NCBI RefSeq assembly: GCF_001434255.1
Contig: NZ_AZEY01000090.1
Coordinates: forward strand, 157,792 to 221,791
Origin: Lentilactobacillus diolivorans DSM 14421
GTDB lineage: Bacteria > Bacillota > Bacilli > Lactobacillales > Lactobacillaceae
Direction of reading: 5' to 3'
Length of the DNA stretch: 64,000 nt
Shown here: piece by piece, positions 7,798 through 61,405 of the stretch
Numbering within the stretch: the first letter of the stretch is position 1
Layout: the number at the start of each line of letters is the position of its first letter
Notes under the pieces: generated by a model
Seen by the model: only the letters and a program-made list of their open reading frames with translations
What the model was told of the DNA's origin: nothing
Databases searched by the model: none
Made by a program: the position numbers and the translations under genes

Positions 7798-7825
7798 TTG
7801 ACATTTTAAGTTTGTTACGTATACT
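7798..7825 (+). promoter_or_regulatory. Promoter of the T-box permease transcript
   Basis: A perfect TTGACA (7798-7803) and TATACT (7820-7825) with a 16 bp spacer. The predicted transcript starts near 7832, which leaves only about ten bases before the T-box AGAGAGC motif. Confidence 0.65.
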
Positions 7826-7831
7826 TTATAG

Positions 7832-8008
7832 TTATTAAACAGAGAGCTGATGTTGCTGAAAGTCAGCATTCGAAATGGCAATTAATTAATTGGCTGCATC
7901 CGTTATCTGCATGAGAGGCAATTCATATTCGAATTGTGGAATTGGGTGGAACCGCGTTTAATACATAACGCCCCTAGTACTGTAGTTGGTACTGGGGGCG
8001 TTTTTTTG
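7832..8008 (+). promoter_or_regulatory. T-box leader with shortened Stem I
   Basis: The T-box core GGGTGGAACCGCG is at 7944-7956. The terminator hairpin ACGCCCCTAGTAC / GTACTGGGGGCGT with seven T is at 7968-8007. The Stem I apical region AGAGAGCTGATGTTGCTGAAA...TCAGC is clear. The lower 5' arm is nearly absent, and AGTT replaces the usual AGUA. The specifier cannot be set firmly; GAA-ATG-G at 7872-7878 would give methionine. The leader should allow permease expression when the cognate tRNA is uncharged. Confidence 0.75.
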
Positions 8009-11801: not shown

Positions 11802-12020
11802 AATGAAGCCCCCCTTAAACAGTTCTGAATAACAGTTTACTATAACTTGGAGGGGATTAAGTCAAGCTGTGTCAAAAGTAACTGATGTTTAATATTTTAA
11901 ATCAAATGTTGAAATTATCAATTCGGGTTGAATCTGATTGAAATCTGATGGCAGACACGGTTTTAACTCAAATTTTAGGTTCCAAAACAAAAAGATCTGT
12001 GATAATATGGAAAAGTTATG

Positions 12021-12086
12021 AGTTCCCGATAGGATTCGCGCTGGACGTGAAGAAGCCTTGTAACCTAAAAAATAAGTAGGGGGAAA
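12021..12086 (+). promoter_or_regulatory. SMK box (SAM-III) riboswitch of metK
   Basis: The conserved blocks appear in order: GTTCCCGATAGGAT, a variable hairpin, GCCTTGTAACC, and the Shine-Dalgarno run AGGGGGAA 7 nt before the metK ATG. In the known SMK class, S-adenosylmethionine stabilises pairing between the GTTCCC region and the ribosome binding site and so blocks translation. Here TTCCC can pair with the GGGGGAA directly. This is a translational feedback switch on SAM synthesis. Confidence 0.92.
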
Positions 12087-12091
12087 ATAAA

Positions 12092-13297
12092 ATGCGTGAA
12101 AGACATTTATTTACTTCGGAATCAGTTTCAGAAGGACATCCGGATAAGATTGCCGATCAGATCAGTGATGCAATTTTAGACGCGTTGTTAGCAAAAGATC
12201 CAGATGCACGAGTTGCATGTGAGACATCCGTTACGACCGGATTGGTTCTCGTATTTGGTGAAATTTCCACAAGTGCCTATGTCGATATTCAAAAAGTCGT
12301 TCGTGATACGATCAAACGAATTGGTTACGTTGATGGTCGTTATGGGTTTGATGGCGATTCATGTGCCGTCATTGTTGCACTTGATGAACAATCACCTGAT
12401 ATTGCCCAAGGAGTTGACGATGCCTTAGAAGAACGTCATGGACAAACCGATCCATTAGATAAGATTGGTGCCGGTGATCAGGGGTTGATGTTTGGTTATG
12501 CCATTAATGAAACACCAGAATTAATGCCACTACCAATTTCATTGGCTCATCACTTAATGCAAAAACAGGCTGAGTTACGTAAGAACGGCACCATCCCTTA
12601 TCTTGGTCCTGATGCCAAGGCTGAAGTGACCGTTGAATATGATGACGATGATAAGCCATTTCGTGTCGATACTGTTGTTCTAAGTACGCAACATGATGAA
12701 GGTGTTACGCTGGAACAAGTTCGTTCAGATGTGATTGAGCAAATTATTAAAAAGGTCATTCCTAGTCGTTATTTGGATGACAAAACGCGTTATTTAGTTA
12801 ATCCAACTGGTCGTTTTGTCATTGGCGGCCCTCAGGGTGATGCTGGTTTAACCGGCCGAAAGATTATTGTTGATACTTACGGTGGTTATGCACATCATGG
12901 TGGTGGTGCCTTTTCCGGAAAAGACGCAACTAAGGTTGATCGCTCAGCTAGTTATGCCGCTCGTTATATTGCTAAAAACATTGTCGCAGCCGGTTTAGCT
13001 GATCAAGTTGAGATTCAATTAGCTTATGCAATTGGAGTTGCCAAACCAGTTTCCATTGATATTAATACCTTTGGGACGGGGAAGGTTTCTTCAGAACAAT
13101 TGATTGAAGCAACTCGAAAGACTTTTGATCTTCGACCCGCTGGAATTATTAAAATGCTTGACCTGAAACGACCGATTTATGAACAAACGGCTGCTTATGG
13201 TCATTTTGGCAGAACTGATATTGATTTACCTTGGGAACATACTGATAAAGTAGATGCGTTAAAAGACTATTTCAAGTTAAAAACGGCTAAAAACTAG
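12092..13297 (+). CDS. metK: S-adenosylmethionine synthetase
   Basis: MetK (401 aa) makes S-adenosylmethionine from methionine and ATP. The family's signatures are intact: [21 protein letters not shown] at the N-terminus with the ATP-contacting HPDK, GAGDQG (metal and phosphate loop) and the GGGAFSGKD loop. Length equals that of other bacterial MetK. It forms the cytoplasmic link between methionine supply and all SAM-using methylation, including mnmM nearby. Translation is controlled by the SMK box directly upstream, and a strong hairpin terminator follows 6 nt after the stop. Confidence 0.97.
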
Positions 13298-16499: not shown

Positions 16500-16747
16500 T
16501 AGTGAAAAATGAAGAGACGAATTAGTAACTAATCATTTGTTGTCCAGAAACTGAGTGGGGGCTGTGAACTCAGAGCAAGTGGTGGTGAACTCATCGTCGA
16601 ATGCCTGGTCGAATTTGAGTAAGCCAGGTCGGTTTTATCGCCGTTATCGGTTTTGAGTGCTCATTTTATTGTAAATGAGAATATAGGTGGTACCGCGATA
16701 AATCGTCCTATAAGAAACCCAGTGTGGTTTCTTATAGGGCTTTTTTC
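16500..16747 (+). promoter_or_regulatory. T-box riboswitch, leucine specifier CTC, for leuS
   Basis: The specifier loop has AGTA (16524-16527) on its 5' strand and GAACTCA on its 3' strand, giving CTC (Leu) at 16590-16592. The apical AGAAACTGAGTGGGGCTGTGAACTCAG arm lies between. The T-box sequence AGGTGGTACCGCG is at 16685-16697. The terminator CCTATAAGAAACC / GGTTTCTTATAGG with a T run is at 16706-16747. Uncharged tRNA-Leu should favour the antiterminator. Confidence 0.92.
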
Positions 16748-47220: not shown

Positions 47221-47249
47221 TTGACAAGCCTCATAAATCGGGTTATTAT
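47221..47249 (+). promoter_or_regulatory. Promoter of the T-box ABC transporter operon
   Basis: A perfect TTGACA (47221-47226) and TATTAT (47244-47249), 17 bp apart; the transcript would start near 47256. Confidence 0.65.
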
Positions 47250-47255
47250 CATTTC

Positions 47256-47561
47256 TAATCAATATATCATTTGTTTTTAATATTATTTGTGTTGATGGGA
47301 AGAGTAACCGGATTAGTAACATTACAGAAAGTCTTGGATGATGAGATCAAGATGTTTGAAAGTCCGATGAAGATGAGCCCAGAGCATATTCAAGGTACGT
47401 TGCTATTGAATCGCAAGGATGCGTTATCATCCCAAGCTTGAACACGAGCTGTTGAGGTTTAGTAAGTGTGTGGATTAATAAATTACTAGACGAACAAAGG
47501 TGGTAACACGATAATAATCGTCCCTTTACCTGCATTTTAATGTGGGTAAAGGGACTTTTTT
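47256..47561 (+). promoter_or_regulatory. T-box riboswitch, probable methionine specifier ATG
   Basis: The specifier-loop 5' motif AGTA lies at 47302-47305, followed by ACCGGATT. That stretch pairs with AGTCCGAT just before GAAGATGA. Read with the spacing of the argS T-box in this window (GAA, one base, specifier, purine), the specifier is ATG at 47373-47375 (Met). Without the extra base it would be GAT (Asp). The apical GTCTTGGATGATG...ATCAAGA arm is present. The T-box core AAAGGTGGTAACACG is at 47496-47510. The terminator TCCCTTTACC / GGGTAAAGGGA plus seven T is at 47521-47561. Confidence 0.82.
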
Positions 47562-47640
47562 TATTCTTAAAAATTGGTTTAGATGACAATTTTTTGAAAA
47601 AATCGTGATTACTTTACATAACAAAAAAGGAGGTTACAAA

Positions 47641-48423
47641 ATGATCGAAATTACAAATGTCCATAAACAATTCAATAATCGGACAGTTTTGAATGGTATT
47701 AATTTACACGCAGAGACTGGAAATGTTGTCACATTAATCGGTCCCAGTGGTACGGGAAAGACCACGTTACTCAGGTGCATTAATCTACTTGAGGAACCTG
47801 ATCAGGGCACGATTGAAATTGATGGTGTCCGGGTTCAAATTCCAATCAAGAATAAAAATGATATATTGACACTTCGACGTAAAACCGCGATGGTTTTTCA
47901 GCAATACAATCTTTTTCGAAATCAAACTGTCCTTCAAAATGTGGTTCAACCACAGGTACTTGTTAAACGGACTAATAAGCAAGTGGCTAAGCAACGTGCT
48001 GAAACATTTTTACAAGAGGTTGGTATGCAGGATTATCAAAAGTATTATCCATCACAGTTATCTGGTGGTCAGCAGCAACGGGTCAGTATTGCAAGAGCAC
48101 TGGCACTTGATCCCAAGGTAATTTTATTCGATGAACCAACCAGTGCCCTGGATCCGGAGCTTTCGCGTGAAGTGTTGAATGCTATTCACAAGGTAGCAGA
48201 TCTGGGGATTACGATTGTACTGGCAACTCATGAAATGCAGTTTGCAGAAGAAATTTCAAATCAGGTTGTTTTTATGGAAAACGGCAATGTTGTTGAAGAC
48301 GGTACACCGGCTGAAATCTTTCATCATCCGGCGAATGAGCGGACCGCAAGATTCCTTGAAAACTATCGCGTTCGTCAAGCACCAATTTATTCTGCACAAA
48401 TAAAAAAGTTTAAGGTGGTTTAA
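47641..48423 (+). CDS. Amino acid ABC transporter ATP-binding protein
   Basis: A 260-aa ATPase of the polar amino acid transporter family. Walker A is GPSGTGKTT (near residue 35), the Q-loop is MVFQQYNLF, the signature is LSGGQQQR and Walker B is VILFDEPTSALDPE, followed by the H-loop ATHEM. The frame extends upstream to 47605, but ATG 47641 behind AAAGGAGG is the start. It is the first of five genes with gaps of at most 64 nt and mostly overlapping ends, all downstream of the T-box. Confidence 0.93.
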   Translation: MIEITNVHKQFNNRTVLNGINLHAETGNVVTLIGPSGTGKTTLLRCINLLEEPDQGTIEIDGVRVQIPIKNKNDILTLRRKTAMVFQQYNLFRNQTVLQNVVQPQVLVKRTNKQVAKQRAETFLQEVGMQDYQKYYPSQLSGGQQQRVSIARALALDPKVILFDEPTSALDPELSREVLNAIHKVADLGITIVLATHEMQFAEEISNQVVFMENGNVVEDGTPAEIFHHPANERTARFLENYRVRQAPIYSAQIKKFKVV

Positions 48424-48428
48424 CAATT

Positions 48429-49250
48429 ATGAAGAAGACACATCGAATTTTAGCAATTCTCCCAATCTTATTAATCGCACTCTTTTTGACAGCTTGTGGT
48501 AAATCATCAGGTCAAAGTAAGAAAACATATGATGTTGCCGTTTCAACAGCCAGTAAACCGTTAAGCTATCAAGAAAATGGCAAGTTAAAAGGTTATGAAG
48601 TTGATGTTTTAAAGGCAGTGGAAAAGAAACTTGGTAATGTTAAATTCAATTACAGTGCAGTTTCCCAGACGGCTGAACTAATCGGCCTTGATTCCAAGAA
48701 ATATGATTTTGCCGCCAATGGTTTTTATAGCAACCCTGAGCGTCAGAAAAAATATTTGGTACCTAAGCAAAATGACGGACTTAGTTTAGTGAAGGTCTAC
48801 TACAACAAGAATAAGGTCAAAAAATCAATCAAAAACTTGGATGACTTATCCGGTCTCCGCGTTGCTCCAGTCAATCCCAATGGTGGTATGTATAACTTGT
48901 TAACCACATGGAACAAAACCAACTCTAAGAAAGTAAAAGTTTTGACCAGCGATCAATTCCCATTACAACAACTTCTAAAAGATGTTAATAGTGGTAAGTA
49001 TGATGCGTTAATTGATCCTTCTAATTTAGGCGAAAACGAAATCATTTCTGGTTTGAAACTTAATAATATTAGGAGTTCAGAACCTGTTCGTGCATTTCCA
49101 ACTTATTTCTTATTCACCAAGGACAATACAGCAATCTCTAAGCGGGTTGATAAAGCATTAAAGGAATTAAAAAAGGATGGCACGTTGAGCAAACTTTCAA
49201 AGAAGTATTTCGGCGAGGATGTCTTTCAGTACAAAGTTAAGGAAAATTAA
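48429..49250 (+). CDS. Amino acid ABC transporter substrate-binding lipoprotein
   Basis: A family 3 solute-binding lipoprotein of 273 aa. The signal sequence ends with the lipobox ALFLTAC. The fold markers SYQENGKLKGYEVDVLKAV, the DFAANGFYSNPERQ loop and DALIDPSN follow. Absence of the usual amino-acid-binding arginine motif (SxxRxE) in a clear form makes the ligand hard to predict. The operon's Met T-box suggests methionine or a methylated or sulfur-containing relative. It starts 5 nt after the ATPase gene. Confidence 0.9.
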   Translation: MKKTHRILAILPILLIALFLTACGKSSGQSKKTYDVAVSTASKPLSYQENGKLKGYEVDVLKAVEKKLGNVKFNYSAVSQTAELIGLDSKKYDFAANGFYSNPERQKKYLVPKQNDGLSLVKVYYNKNKVKKSIKNLDDLSGLRVAPVNPNGGMYNLLTTWNKTNSKKVKVLTSDQFPLQQLLKDVNSGKYDALIDPSNLGENEIISGLKLNNIRSSEPVRAFPTYFLFTKDNTAISKRVDKALKELKKDGTLSKLSKKYFGEDVFQYKVKEN

Positions 49251-49314
49251 GCTTCAAAATTAAATTTATTAAGTCGTCAATAAAAAAGCAATGAATTAAA
49301 AGTCAGGTGAGCAT

Positions 49315-50025
49315 ATGCATAATTTTAGTGACGTAATTGGCCTTTTTAAACAGTTGTTAACAGGGTTGCCAATTACCCTCGGCTTCATTATTTCTTCGTG
49401 GATTATTGGATTTAGTTTATCGGTATTGGTGACTGCCGGTCGATTAAGTCCGCGGAGATGGTTGAGATATCCTCTAGACGTTTTGGTTTCCTTCACTAGA
49501 AGCATTCCAATTGTTTTGCAGCTGTTTTTGGTCTATTACGGATTGCCAGCGCTTGTTCAAACGCTGATCGGCGTTGACCTAAATGATGTCAATAAAATGA
49601 TCTTCTGTATTATCACGTTTTCAATTTACTATGGTTCCTATTTGTCTGAGATCCTCAGGCCAGCATATTTATCTGTTCGAAAAGAGCAGCATGATGCGGC
49701 CTATGGGTTGGGATATACCAAATTTCAGACGAATTTTCATGTTATTGTGCCGCAGATGTTCTCAATTGCGCTACCATCACTGGGAAATGAAGTCATTAAT
49801 TTAGTTCATCAGTCATCCATTCTGTTTGTTTTAGGAACTGTCGATTTAATGGGGCAGGCGGATATGATTATCACAACGGATTACACCTCATCACCGCTGC
49901 TGACTTATTTCTGTGCTGGGATGATTTATTGGGGATTAACGATTGTTATCACGGCCGTTGTTCATAGCATTGAAAGGTATGTTGATCGATACAAGCAAAG
50001 TGATTTAGAGGGAGGGACAATATGA
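49315..50025 (+). CDS. Amino acid ABC transporter permease, first subunit
   Basis: A 236-aa membrane subunit with about five helices. The inner-membrane coupling motif is EQHDAAYGLGYTKFQTNFHVIVPQM, the EAA loop of binding-protein-dependent permeases. The N-terminal RSIPIVLQLFLVYYGLP is the polar-amino-acid subfamily mark. A 64-base gap separates it from the binding protein. Its stop overlaps the second permease start (ATATGA), so both subunits are probably made in equal amounts and form a heterodimer. Confidence 0.92.
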   Translation: MHNFSDVIGLFKQLLTGLPITLGFIISSWIIGFSLSVLVTAGRLSPRRWLRYPLDVLVSFTRSIPIVLQLFLVYYGLPALVQTLIGVDLNDVNKMIFCIITFSIYYGSYLSEILRPAYLSVRKEQHDAAYGLGYTKFQTNFHVIVPQMFSIALPSLGNEVINLVHQSSILFVLGTVDLMGQADMIITTDYTSSPLLTYFCAGMIYWGLTIVITAVVHSIERYVDRYKQSDLEGGTI

Positions 50026-50726
50026 GCTCACATATTTTTGTTGGCGATTTCTGGACGATTTGGAAAGTGGTCCCTCAGACACTTGGATTGTCATTTTTGA
50101 TTTTAATTTTAGCAACGCTGCTTGGAAGTCTCTTTTGGCAGATTCAAGAGTCTAGGCACACAGCGATTAAGTTTCTATATCATGCCTTTTCTTCTTATTT
50201 CAGAGGTGTTCCGTTGCTAATTCATTTATTGATTTTTTATTACGGTCTACCGATAGTGATTAAGGCTCTTAGTGATCAATTTAATTGGGGGGTTAGCACC
50301 AATCAATTGAATCCCATTTATGCGGTCATTGTTAGTTACACGTTATATTCGGCAAGTTTCTTAGCTGAAATTATTCGTGGATCCTTTAAGTCAGTTGGTA
50401 CGGATCAACTGGAAGCGGCATCTGCATTGGGGTATACGGGGACTCAGCGCTTTTTCGCAGTTTGGCTGCCACAAGCGTTAAGTGAAGCTCTTCCCAAAAT
50501 CTTGAATTATTATACGCTTCTGATTCGTCAGTTATCATTAGCTTTTCTGGTGTCCGTAGTTGATATTTTTGCAAAAGCCAAGTTGGAGACGGCAGCTAAT
50601 GACCGTTATATTGAAGCGTTTTGTGCGGCCGCCATTGTTTATTGGATCTTATGTGTTGTTTTAACGTTAATCTTTTCAAAAGTTGAACACTATTTACGTC
50701 GATATGATAGGAGTGTGTTGGCATGA
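50022..50726 (+). CDS. Amino acid ABC transporter permease, second subunit
   Basis: This 234-aa partner of the preceding permease shares its arrangement: FRGVPLLIHLLIFYYGLP in the second helix region and the EAA loop DQLEAASALGYTGTQRFFAVWLPQA. The two subunits differ enough to suggest an asymmetric pore. The start overlaps the previous stop by 4 nt, and its own stop overlaps the next gene (ATGA). The tight packing includes the final, non-transport gene in the same transcript. Confidence 0.92.
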   Translation: MSSHIFVGDFWTIWKVVPQTLGLSFLILILATLLGSLFWQIQESRHTAIKFLYHAFSSYFRGVPLLIHLLIFYYGLPIVIKALSDQFNWGVSTNQLNPIYAVIVSYTLYSASFLAEIIRGSFKSVGTDQLEAASALGYTGTQRFFAVWLPQALSEALPKILNYYTLLIRQLSLAFLVSVVDIFAKAKLETAANDRYIEAFCAAAIVYWILCVVLTLIFSKVEHYLRRYDRSVLA

Positions 50727-51754
50727 ATCATTATGAACGAATTAAAGCAGCTTTAAATTTTCAACCAGTTGACCGGGTCCCAGTTAATTTATGGGCTCAT
50801 TTACCGGAATATGATCAAAATCCAAAATCCTTAGCCAGAAAGCAAGTCGAATTTGCGCAACAGTATGACTTTGATTTTATCAAATTAATGCCATTTGGCC
50901 TCTATGCGGTCGAAGATTATGGTGCCGAGATTAAATATTATGCGCAACGAGATCATCCGGCTGTTTTGAGTAAACCTGGGATTAATCATTATAGTGATTG
51001 GCAGAAGGTTGAACCTTTACCTGGCAATTATGGGACCTATGGGAAACAGGTCGAACTGGCAAAGTATGTTCGTGAATTCTCACAAGGGCAATTACCATTT
51101 ATTCAGACAATTTTCAATCCACTTACGAATGCTTTAAAATTAGCTGGTAATCGGTTAGTGTTGGATATTAAAGAACATCCAGATGAAGTTAAACAGGCCT
51201 TGGAAGCCTTAACTGAAACAACAATTAATTTTATTAATGAAAATATTAATGCGGGTGTTGATGGTTTCTTTTATGCAACTCAAACAGCAACTGCCAATTT
51301 ATTTACCAGAGAGGAATATTTGGAATTTGGTCGGCCTTATGATTTAAAAGTCCTTAATGCATTTAAGGATAAGACATGGTTTAATGTTGCTCATATTCAT
51401 GGTGATCATACTTATTTTGACTTGATTGCTGATTATCCGGTTCAAGCATTGAATTGGCATGATCGTTCAGTAGCTCCTTCATTAAAGGAGGCACGGCAAC
51501 AGACAAATAAAGCACTGATTGGTGGCCTTCATGAATTACCTTACGAGGATGTTGAAACCGGCAGCCGACCAAGTATTCTAGTGACTGGATCCGTTAATGA
51601 AGTTGAAAAACACGTTCAAGAAGCGATTGATGAAGTGAATGGGAAAGGGCTGATCATTGGTCCGGGATGCGTTGCCAGTCAAGAAGTACCCGATGCAAAT
51701 ATTTATGCATTACGATCTGCAGTGGGATTCTCAACGGCCAGAGAGAGTGTTTGA
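50723..51754 (+). CDS. UroD-superfamily protein with methyltransferase-type zinc ligands
   Basis: A 343-aa TIM-barrel protein of the uroporphyrinogen decarboxylase superfamily (starts ERIKAALNFQPVDRVPVNLW). It is not a haem enzyme by context. Unlike true UroD, it has the zinc-type residues of the MtaA/CmuA methyltransferase branch: His224 and His226 in HIHGDH (usually HxC) and Cys316 in GPGCVASQEVP. Such proteins activate a thiol and transfer a methyl group to it. Under a probable Met T-box and fused by overlap to an uptake system, it may methylate homocysteine or demethylate an imported compound. Family certain, reaction inferred. Confidence 0.78.
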   Translation: MNHYERIKAALNFQPVDRVPVNLWAHLPEYDQNPKSLARKQVEFAQQYDFDFIKLMPFGLYAVEDYGAEIKYYAQRDHPAVLSKPGINHYSDWQKVEPLPGNYGTYGKQVELAKYVREFSQGQLPFIQTIFNPLTNALKLAGNRLVLDIKEHPDEVKQALEALTETTINFINENINAGVDGFFYATQTATANLFTREEYLEFGRPYDLKVLNAFKDKTWFNVAHIHGDHTYFDLIADYPVQALNWHDRSVAPSLKEARQQTNKALIGGLHELPYEDVETGSRPSILVTGSVNEVEKHVQEAIDEVNGKGLIIGPGCVASQEVPDANIYALRSAVGFSTARESV

Positions 51755-59484: not shown

Positions 59485-59690
59485 GTTATGATTATTCAAT
59501 AATAAAAGAGAAGTAGTTGGTCACTAATTATTCAGCGAGTTCGGAGGGGTGGAAGCCGGACTAATTAGTCAACGAAGCGTGCTTTTTAGAATGCTAATTT
59601 AATAGTTGAGCGGATATTTATATCAAATAGAGTGGTACCGCGGGGGTTACTCGTCTCTTACAATTTTTTTGTAAGAGTTTTTTTGTGCAT
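59485..59690 (+). promoter_or_regulatory. T-box riboswitch, arginine specifier CGT, for argS
   Basis: The specifier loop has AGTA (59512-59515) and GAAGCGTG on the 3' strand, so CGT at 59578-59580 is the specifier. GTTG and ACTAATT pair with AATTAGT and CAAC around a GTC bulge, fixing the register. The apical TTCGGAGGGGTGGAAGCCGG arm is present. The T-box core GAGTGGTACCGCG is at 59630-59642. The terminator CTCTTACAA / TTGTAAGAG with a T run is at 59656-59685. Confidence 0.92.
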
Positions 59691-59713
59691 TTTTATAGAT
59701 GGAGGAAATAATA

Positions 59714-61405
59714 ATGGATTATAAGGCGCAGGTAACAAATTCAATTTTAACTGTTTTAAACGATGAATTATCTTCGGCAGAGGTATATCAAAAATTAGAA
59801 AAACCAAAGACACTTGCAATGGGTGACTTGGCATTTCCAGTATTTTCATTAGCAAAGGTATTTCATAAAGCTCCAAATATGATTGCTGAAGATTTGGTTT
59901 CGAAGATTGATCAGAGTTCCTATGACAAGGTTGAAGCAAAGGGTGCTTATATTAACTTCTTTCTTGACAAGGGTCAGTTTAGCCGCCAAATCTTAACTGA
60001 TGTTCTTGAAGAGGGATCGGCATATGGTCAAAACGATCGCGGAAAGGGTGGCAATGTACCAATTGATATGTCATCACCTAACATTGCCAAACCCATTTCA
60101 ATGGGACATTTGCGTTCAACCGTGATTGGAAATTCAATCGCTAATATTTTAACGAAAAATGGCTATCATCCAATTAAGGATAACCATTTAGGTGATTGGG
60201 GAACTCAATTTGGTAAGCTGATTGTTGCTTATAAAAAGTGGGGTAACGAGGAAGACGTTAAAAAAGATCCCATTAATAATTTAGTTAAATATTACGTGAA
60301 ATTCCATGTGGAAGATAAAGAACATCCGGAATTAGATGATGAAGCTCGAGAGACTTTCAAGAAACTTGAGGATGGTAACGAAGAAGAAATTCATCTTTGG
60401 AAATGGTTCCGTAAAGTTTCGTTGGAAGCCTTTAACAAAATTTATCAAAAATTAGGTATCGATTTTGACACGTATAATGGTGAAGCCTTTTATAACGATA
60501 AGATGGATGAAGGCATTCAAATTCTGAAAGACAAGGGTCTTCTCGTAGAGTCCCAAGGTGCTCAGGTCGTTAAGCTGGATAAGTATAATTTAAATCCTGC
60601 CTTGATTTTGAAGAGTGACGGGGCAACTCTTTACATCACCCGGGATATTGCAACCGCGATTTACCGTGATCGAACGTACAAACCAGCCATGAATCTTTAC
60701 GTTGTTGGCTCGGAACAGACTTATTACTTCAAGCAACTAAAAGCGGTTTTATTGGAAATGGGGCTAAAGTCTGCTGAAGACCTGCATCACATTCCATTTG
60801 GCCTCATTACTGTTAATGGTAAAAAATTATCGACGCGTTCCGGTCGGATTATTTTGTTGGACAAAGTGCTGGATGATGCGATTAACCTTGCGCAGAAGCA
60901 AATTGAAGAAAAGAATCCTGATTTGCCTCACAAAGATGAAGTTGCTAAAGAAGTTGGTGTTGGTGCTATTATTTTTGGCGATTTAAAGAATGAACGAATG
61001 AATAATATTGACTTTGTTTTAGAGGACCAACTTCGATTTGAAGGCGAGACGGGTCCATATGTTCAATATTCACATGCCCGTGCTGAAAGTATCTTACGTA
61101 AAGCTGGCGACATTGATTTACACGCGGCTAATAAATCATTAGCTGATCCTGAAGCTTGGGAGACAATCACTGCTTTAAAAGACTTTCCGAATGTTGTCAT
61201 AAATGCTTGCCGAGACTTCGAACCATCAGAAATTGCCAAGTATTCACTAAGATTGGCAAAGTCGTTTAATAAATACTATGCTCATTCAAAGGTTTTAGTG
61301 GAAGACGATCAGCTGGGAGCACGTTTATCACTTGTTAAAGCCGTTTCAATTGTGTTAAAAGAATCATTAAGTTTATTAGGTGTTAAGGCACCTGATGAAA
61401 TGTAA
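59714..61405 (+). CDS. argS: Arginyl-tRNA synthetase
   Basis: ArgRS of 563 aa. The class I HIGH motif appears as SMGHLRST (after SSPNIAKPI) near residue 125, and the N-terminal Add1 domain that recognises the tRNA D-loop is present. The C-terminal anticodon-binding domain begins near residue 450 (RAESILRK). As usual for ArgRS, KMSKS is replaced, here by KKLSTRSGR. The frame opens at 59699, but ATG 59714, 7 nt behind GGAGGA, is the start. It is controlled by the arginine T-box. Confidence 0.97.
   Translation: MDYKAQVTNSILTVLNDELSSAEVYQKLEKPKTLAMGDLAFPVFSLAKVFHKAPNMIAEDLVSKIDQSSYDKVEAKGAYINFFLDKGQFSRQILTDVLEEGSAYGQNDRGKGGNVPIDMSSPNIAKPISMGHLRSTVIGNSIANILTKNGYHPIKDNHLGDWGTQFGKLIVAYKKWGNEEDVKKDPINNLVKYYVKFHVEDKEHPELDDEARETFKKLEDGNEEEIHLWKWFRKVSLEAFNKIYQKLGIDFDTYNGEAFYNDKMDEGIQILKDKGLLVESQGAQVVKLDKYNLNPALILKSDGATLYITRDIATAIYRDRTYKPAMNLYVVGSEQTYYFKQLKAVLLEMGLKSAEDLHHIPFGLITVNGKKLSTRSGRIILLDKVLDDAINLAQKQIEEKNPDLPHKDEVAKEVGVGAIIFGDLKNERMNNIDFVLEDQLRFEGETGPYVQYSHARAESILRKAGDIDLHAANKSLADPEAWETITALKDFPNVVINACRDFEPSEIAKYSLRLAKSFNKYYAHSKVLVEDDQLGARLSLVKAVSIVLKESLSLLGVKAPDEM

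Follow-up and report, generated by a model that had tools for sequence, protein, structure and literature searches.

The zinc thiol methyltransferases described from the UroD superfamily in the papers considered here use methyl-corrinoid or, in the manner of MetE, methyl-folate (PMC10418091, PMC539065). Here we analyse a five-gene operon of Lentilactobacillus diolivorans DSM 14421 in which a predicted methionine T-box precedes an ATP-binding cassette (ABC) importer for amino acids and a UroD-superfamily protein. The operon occupies positions 47,221 to 51,754 of the window, the whole stretch of 64,000 nucleotides (nt) that was analysed (contig NZ_AZEY01000090.1, positions 157,792 to 221,791 of the forward strand). 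An earlier note on this DNA had read it as a system that imports a methylated or sulfur amino acid and passes a methyl group to homocysteine or a related thiol. L, G and C numbers are our labels for loci, genomes and contigs, G000 being the L. diolivorans genome.

The MtaA, MtbA and CmuA methylcobamide:thiol methyltransferases have in common with this UroD protein the fold (4ay7) and the placement of the His and the final Cys; unlike them, it has a His rather than a Cys as the middle candidate ligand, and its lactobacillar hosts lack a corrinoid-domain match. Mlp proteins, which also belong to the UroD superfamily, have been proposed to salvage methyl-sulfur or methyl-selenium compounds, similar to what we propose here. 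However, type 1 mlp clusters encode a corrinoid protein and an activase, neither of which has a gene in this operon, and Mlp proteins are His-Cys-Cys with few exceptions (PMC10418091). To count as an Mlp, a protein must be over 25% identical to an SCMT that has been characterised, whereas the UroD protein is about 20% identical to 4ay7, the one SCMT compared. MetE uses zinc and transfers a methyl group directly to homocysteine (PMC539065), as suggested for this enzyme, and the luxS-metE genes share the methionine-pattern T-box. Unlike the UroD protein, MetE has His-Cys-Glu-Cys ligands (PMC539065), its structural match is the weaker one, and the only Pfam family matched here is URO-D. An MmuM-type operon of the same genome (G000:C67) likewise combines a methionine-pattern T-box, an importer and a homocysteine methyltransferase in one gene run, but differs in enzyme family (PF02574) and importer class (energy-coupling factor (ECF) type). 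In Lactobacillus paracasei, yckJ-yckK-metC places a cystine-type ABC transporter and a sulfur amino acid enzyme under a methionine T-box, as here, but that enzyme is a cystathionine lyase and not a UroD homologue (PMC6004538).

Because methionine T-boxes on transporters (Wels 2008) and on cystine-type ABC and lyase genes are known, the regulation of the operon is ordinary; its enzyme is not. Among the titles listed from the open-licence PubMed Central literature, none deals with the pairing of importer and UroD homologue or with this enzyme; one paper lists phyL-uroD-eamA, an operon whose role is unknown, and cdsB in a different place. We propose, with a probability of roughly 45%, that the operon encodes a corrinoid-free zinc enzyme for which an imported S-methyl amino acid would be the donor of a methyl or alkyl group and a thiol, probably homocysteine, the acceptor.

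The operon and its T-box leader

The features of the locus are as follows.

47221-47249, forward strand: sigma-70-type promoter, TTGACA-17-TATTAT, 11 of 12 consensus positions matched
47283-47528, forward strand: T-box riboswitch leader (RF00230, 90.8 bits), predicted specifier AUG (Met), bulge UGGU
47520-47555, forward strand: intrinsic terminator, 16-pair stem followed by a T run
47641-48423, forward strand: polar amino acid ABC transporter ATPase; an in-frame GTG start at 47605 appears in the list of open reading frames (ORFs)
48429-49250, forward strand: substrate-binding protein, SBP_bac_3; nearest solved relatives 4c0r, 4eq9 and YtmK (2o1m)
49315-50025, forward strand: ABC permease 1
50022-50726, forward strand: ABC permease 2, 4-nt overlap with permease 1
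50723-51754, forward strand: UroD-superfamily protein, 343 residues, candidate zinc ligands H224, H226 and C316; 4-nt overlap with permease 2

The leader matches RF00230 over the full model (1-219 of 219) with 90.8 bits and an E-value of 1.6e-20 in a 561-base scan. This is 2.2 bits short of the Rfam gathering score of 93, which is why the default scan of the window did not list it. Its folding z-score is -4.12, and none of 200 shuffles was equally stable. The earlier note had placed the specifier by alignment with the argS T-box of the window, and this procedure proved sound: the argS T-box is real (59490-59661, upstream of argS at 59699-61405), it reads GAA-G-CGT where this leader reads GAA-G-ATG, and the one-base offset is identical. 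The window also holds a leuS T-box (16503-16713), and the AUG of this leader occupies the Rfam columns that carry CUC there. The spacing between GAA and specifier varies, being 0 for leuS and pheS, 1 for argS and 2 for tyrS (our own reading, with the genes confirmed), so that register alone could not have settled the specifier.

Further support comes from the same genome (3.26 Mb, rated 100% complete, contamination 2.42), in which 54 T-box matches were found at E-values up to 0.01, 38 of them below the Rfam gathering score. When bases 61-140 of each leader were searched, 17 of the 54 carried the pattern GAA-N-ATG-R, whereas 500 mononucleotide-shuffled sets averaged 1.1 and never exceeded 5; the 17 include a chance match at another place in a thrS-like leader (L081, gene named by eye) and two unclear cases (L015 and L024). 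Leaders with this pattern precede metA-like, metQ-like and cystathionine-gamma-synthase-like genes (named after the best NCBIfam models, all below their cut-offs), luxS-metE (luxS named by eye) and a paralogue of the B12-independent methionine synthase.

An aspartate specifier, GAT, was considered as the alternative reading and rejected. The luxS-metE leader of this genome and the operon leader of Secundilactobacillus kimchicus (L034) both read GAA-U-AUG, which excludes the Asp codon GAU, and the leaders of two other relatives (L032 and L033) read GAA-G-AUG. AUG is thus present in all three relatives' leaders in view, two of which score below the gathering threshold; the contig of L031 starts 63 nt upstream of the ATPase gene, placing its leader outside the view. 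The bulge sequence UGGU fits A73 of tRNA-Met, while the tRNA-Asp of this genome has G73 (own reading); this is weak support, and the specifier assignment does not depend on it. Two methionine-pattern leaders, L021 and L067, have a UGGC bulge that mismatches A73 of tRNA-Met. As judged from the Rfam match, the pattern within the genome and the relatives' leaders, the leader is a methionine-class T-box with a predicted AUG specifier, and methionine control of the operon, as the earlier note had it, is supported.

The intergenic distances across the five genes are, in order, 5, 64, -4 and -4 nt. Promoter, T-box, terminator, gene order and the 4-nt overlap of the UroD gene with permease 2, all described previously for this DNA, were borne out by sequence, Rfam and ORF checks. 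The UroD gene occurs in 5 of 397 sampled genomes of the family, our own included (E up to 1e-30), distributed over 2 of 40 genera. The four other carriers, taken from agreeing identities and positions to be Lentilactobacillus sunkii, Secundilactobacillus folii, S. similis and S. kimchicus, all share these five genes and their order, in line with a single conserved operon. Both 4-nt overlaps are found in all five operons, and the UroD proteins are 74-83% identical across the two genera. It is conceivable that only the importer matters under methionine starvation, and that the UroD gene has an unrelated role such as decarboxylation. Of 398 genomes sampled across the phylum, 5 (own included) have a relative at E up to 1e-70, a rarity that would agree with such a role. 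However, the overlap with permease 2 in every operon, the identity retained across two genera and the fact that an Aerococcus homologue is paired independently with an importer of MetQ type make it very improbable. In S. similis, the ATPase gene is split over two frames (L033 3458-4245) and may be broken or affected by a sequencing error. In S. folii, genes for a pyridoxal phosphate-dependent enzyme of Cys/Met metabolism and a serine acetyltransferase-like protein (by eye) lie upstream of the operon.

The UroD-superfamily protein and the corrinoid question

In Pfam, the protein matches URO-D alone (PF01208, 103.9 bits against a gathering score of 23.9). Its score of 24.6 bits against the hemE equivalog TIGR01464 is far below the cut-off of 302.95, by which a role in haem synthesis, thought unlikely from the outset, is rejected. 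The NCBIfam models of MtaA/CmuA type are reached to about a third of their cut-offs (TIGR01463, 82.5 versus 235.4 bits; PRK06252, 83.9 versus 244 bits). An AlphaFold model was obtained with a mean predicted local distance difference test score (pLDDT) of 93.8 and a predicted template-modelling score of 0.92. Foldseek ranked first MtaA of Methanosarcina mazei (4ay7; template-modelling (TM) score 0.78, 20% identity), described as a methylcobalamin:coenzyme M methyltransferase, followed by UroDs and then by MetE (TM about 0.5-0.6), supporting the MtaA-like fold that had been suggested.

The positions given in the earlier note for H224, H226 and C316 are accurate, and the site is not lost among homologues: all three residues are invariant in 56 of 56 aligned sequences, an alignment from which ORFs of 280 residues or less were excluded, and shorter pieces also keep the HxH...C motif (33 of 33 rows of a second alignment). 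Within the motif HIHGDH, H224 and H226 are conserved whereas H229 is not (HIHGDN in L031). The proposed equivalence to the zinc positions of MtaA holds for H224 and C316, whose counterparts in the 4ay7 motif are the His and the final Cys, but not for H226, because the MtaA site is H-x-C...C and H226 aligns with its first Cys. The motif is therefore His-His-Cys and not His-Cys-Cys. Further residues invariant in all 56 sequences are W24, H26, D31, K54, T129, F131, D207, W245, H246, G268 and G315. Many of the invariant residues fall within predicted beta strands or directly follow them (E53-55, E126-131, E222-225, E242-245, E264-268 and E310-313), as expected for residues at the mouth of a triosephosphate isomerase (TIM) barrel. 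According to Kountz and Balskus, His-Cys-Cys marks the S-methyltransferases of the superfamily, and the O-methyltransferases are recognised by carboxylate or non-coordinating residues in place of these ligands (PMC10418091); His-His-Cys is not mentioned in the part of that ligand scheme considered here. The chloromethane enzyme CdmB, a distant relative, is without zinc (PMC13222342), so membership of the superfamily alone is no proof of a metal. We read the protein as belonging to a conserved His-His-Cys branch of the UroD superfamily, with a putative zinc site.

The genome of L. diolivorans contains no match to PF02310 (B12-binding), which was searched in this genome only, or to PF02607 (B12-binding_2), while controls matched. 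PF02607 is found in none of the five Lactobacillaceae carriers, compared to all 11 of the other carriers examined; the MtaA/CmuA mechanism therefore does not fit, and a methyl-corrinoid donor is unlikely in lactobacilli but possible in other phyla. An ordinary corrinoid-dependent, MtaA-like methyltransferase would have to use an overlooked corrinoid protein or free cobalamin. While its nearest NCBIfam models are methylcobalamin:coenzyme M methyltransferases and its nearest fold is 4ay7, the lack of matches to these domains, the family scores far under their cut-offs and the His-His-Cys motif in place of His-Cys-Cys render such an enzyme very improbable.

Importer, distant relatives and the proposed reaction

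Matches to ABC_tran, SBP_bac_3 and BPD_transp_1, all over their cut-offs, identify a polar amino acid ABC importer of the SBP_bac_3 type. The best NCBIfam model for the ATPase is TcyN (288 bits against a cut-off of 406); the permeases score 116.8 and 104.4 bits against the cystine permease model (cut-off 300) and the binding protein 86.3 bits against the cystine binding protein model (cut-off 312). By these scores the importer appears to be a relative of the TcyJKLMN/TcyN-type cystine importers that falls outside the equivalog cut-offs. Among the nearest solved relatives of the binding protein, we take 4c0r and 4eq9 to be glutathione-binding GshT proteins and YtmK to be a cystine-type TcyK, relatives that support the view of a sulfur-type amino acid importer. 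R105 and D196 of the binding protein are invariant in a five-row alignment and are presumably the contacts of this class to the alpha-amino acid moiety, which disfavours betaines and dimethylsulfoniopropionate as substrates. Plasmid relatives of the binding protein (about 41% identical) in one Rhizobium and one Pantoea record, of 34 that match, have an oxidoreductase gene nearby and no UroD annotated.

Beyond the lactobacilli, relatives of the UroD protein (E up to 1e-70) were found in 23 of 185 genomes of Synergistota, the phylum of the L037 genome, and in 2 of 385 genomes from the class to which L059 belongs. We surveyed 46 non-lactobacillar loci (L035-L059, L091 and L095-L114; three genomes with two loci each), leaving out short contigs of G922 and the loci of G897 beyond L057; L093 and L094, for which no CTEP-type gene is listed, were not counted. 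A CyuA-like gene shares the locus in 20 of the 46, and the gap between it and the UroD gene is below 40 nt in 12 (L037-L040, L096, L097, L104, L106, L107 and L109-L111). By chance, 0.24-0.72 of 46 would be expected, an estimate that assumes gene numbers and independent loci, which these are not. Full-length CyuA-like ORFs are 33-39% identical to E. coli CyuA, annotated as L-cysteine desulfidase, and are much closer to it than to the serine deaminase TdcG. Pfam names the six CyuA-like proteins examined SDH_alpha, and NCBIfam calls none of the four tested a desulfidase; the designation is therefore based on their resemblance to CyuA of E. coli. In a FastTree tree with midpoint rooting, the lactobacillar clade (support 1.0) lies inside an 11-leaf group (support 0.90) that also holds the CyuA-linked L091, L040, L059 and L036 and the unlinked L035 and L112.

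L036, L037, L039, L040, L095, L102 and L103 each contain two distinct UroD paralogues with HxH...C at a short distance from one another, which suggests a two-enzyme system outside the lactobacilli. Near the CyuA-UroD pairs of L091 and L059 lie genes related to each other (L091 3114-4862 and L059 1173-2999, 37% alike), guessed by eye to encode a regulator of the sigma-54 activator type.

These neighbours could also be explained by a zinc C-S lyase or thiol alkyl-transferase that acts on larger S-substituted cysteines (S-conjugates, mercapturates) and frees cysteine for homocysteine and methionine synthesis, with no methyl transfer involved. Such a role would account for the link to CyuA-like genes and to the CysK-like gene that replaces them in L041 and L095, as well as for the M20-like genes, peptide-type ABC and tripartite ATP-independent periplasmic (TRAP) transporters beside some relatives (M20 and peptide-type ABC by eye), and the superfamily includes an epoxide coenzyme M transferase (PMC10418091). 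However, the zinc members described mostly transfer methyl groups, and the lactobacillar operons are under a methionine and not a cysteine T-box; we consider this role unlikely.

A second type of pairing was found on an Aerococcus tenax plasmid (L150 3516-7014), where a UroD homologue (31%) lies after MetQ/NlpA-type ABC genes; H224, H226 and C316 are all retained in this homologue. The record of this plasmid was one of two examined, of five that match, the other being from Polaromonas. The MetQ-type gene of A. tenax is annotated as two overlapping pieces.

The combination of methionine starvation, importers of sulfur or methionine type, a cysteine-desulfidase-like neighbour and the fold of a zinc thiol methyltransferase leads us to propose an S-methylated (or S-alkylated) cysteine-type amino acid as substrate. 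When charged tRNA-Met is low, uncharged tRNA-Met would pair with the AUG specifier and the bulge and prevent formation of the terminator, so that the five genes are transcribed. The ABC transporter would then import a sulfur-containing alpha-amino acid bearing an S-methyl (or S-alkyl) group, and the UroD enzyme, with a zinc ion held by His224, His226 and Cys316, would hand the methyl group straight to a thiol, with no corrinoid carrier in between. The reaction would most likely convert S-methylcysteine and homocysteine to cysteine and methionine; in distant anaerobes, the neighbouring cysteine desulfidase would break down the cysteine that the relative releases. The T-box with its specifier, the operon, the fold, the conserved site, the lack of a corrinoid-domain match in the hosts and the desulfidase-like neighbours are read from sequence; we infer the zinc and the methyl transfer, and donor and acceptor are guesses. 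In its narrowest form, a corrinoid-free zinc S-methylcysteine:homocysteine methyltransferase of the His-His-Cys branch that in anaerobes of other phyla feeds a cysteine desulfidase, the proposal is doubtful.

The main rival donor is S-methylmethionine, which the earlier note had named first. The enzyme would then be a UroD-fold counterpart of MmuM or BHMT, transferring a methyl group from S-methylmethionine (or another sulfonium compound or betaine) to homocysteine, and the importer would bring in S-methylmethionine. Methyl transfer from a sulfonium is easier, and methionine T-box control would suit this role. The same genome also has the MmuM-type operon mentioned above (L116 3050-8868; G000:C67:70049-75867), in which an ECF-type importer and an M20-type peptidase (both by eye) are combined with a homocysteine S-methyltransferase behind a methionine-pattern T-box. 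Yet that operon probably already covers the use of S-methylmethionine, and this donor would leave the cysteine-desulfidase-like neighbours of the relatives unexplained. We therefore disfavour S-methylmethionine and regard it as an unlikely donor.

Several points weigh against the transfer from an imported S-methyl amino acid that we prefer. An unactivated thioether is a poor methyl donor. The superfamily S-demethylases named in PMC10418091 are corrinoid enzymes; in favour of the transfer, MetE is an example of zinc driving carrier-free methyl transfer to homocysteine from a donor that is, in our word, poor (PMC539065). A full-length MetE ORF is present in four of the five Lactobacillaceae carriers, and G796, the fifth, has matches in pieces; the UroD enzyme is therefore not needed as the only methionine synthase, and a role as the sole one of its host is unsupported. 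No CyuA-like gene is seen in 26 of the 46 loci, some of them short contigs, and these include all 15 from Chloroflexota, Asgard and Symbiobacterium (L043-L056 and L058); the L. diolivorans genome has no match to PF03313. The Aerococcus locus gave no Rfam match, with no T-box found, and neither an importer nor a desulfidase is annotated next to the homologue (40%) on the Polaromonas plasmid. The model of the binding protein is poor (pLDDT 62.7) and gave no ligand by structure. Finally, the bulge of the 17 methionine-pattern leaders is not uniform: UGGU is the commonest form (14), UGGC occurs in two (the metA-like L021 and L067) and UGGA in one (L081). Taken as a whole, the earlier observation is confirmed and its interpretation partly supported.

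A conserved His-His-Cys branch under methionine regulation in lactobacilli that lack a PF02607 match, with a desulfidase-like neighbourhood in its relatives of other phyla, points to an unknown route for methylated sulfur amino acids. If the proposal is true in its narrowest form, a single reaction would yield methionine from a thioether amino acid of plants. Compounds of this kind are found in food plants, for example gamma-glutamyl-S-methylcysteine in common bean seed (PMC3606967). The route would be relevant to the sulfur flavours of fermented plants and to the way in which Synergistota use amino acids.

Related elements elsewhere in the genome

The window contains four T-boxes, at 7806-7978, 16503-16713, 47283-47528 and 59490-59661. 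A SAM-III (SMK box) S-adenosylmethionine riboswitch at 12011-12094 lies directly 5' of a metK-like gene (by eye) and gives the window another switch related to methionine. Elsewhere in the genome, several methionine-pattern T-boxes precede OppA-type binding proteins (named by eye), and the leader L015 (G000:C22:149370-149578) reads GAA-T-ATG-G before a gene resembling flavin adenine dinucleotide (FAD)-linked D-lactate dehydrogenase (by eye). At L116, a divergent T-box with the same methionine pattern precedes the gene of a 167-residue protein.

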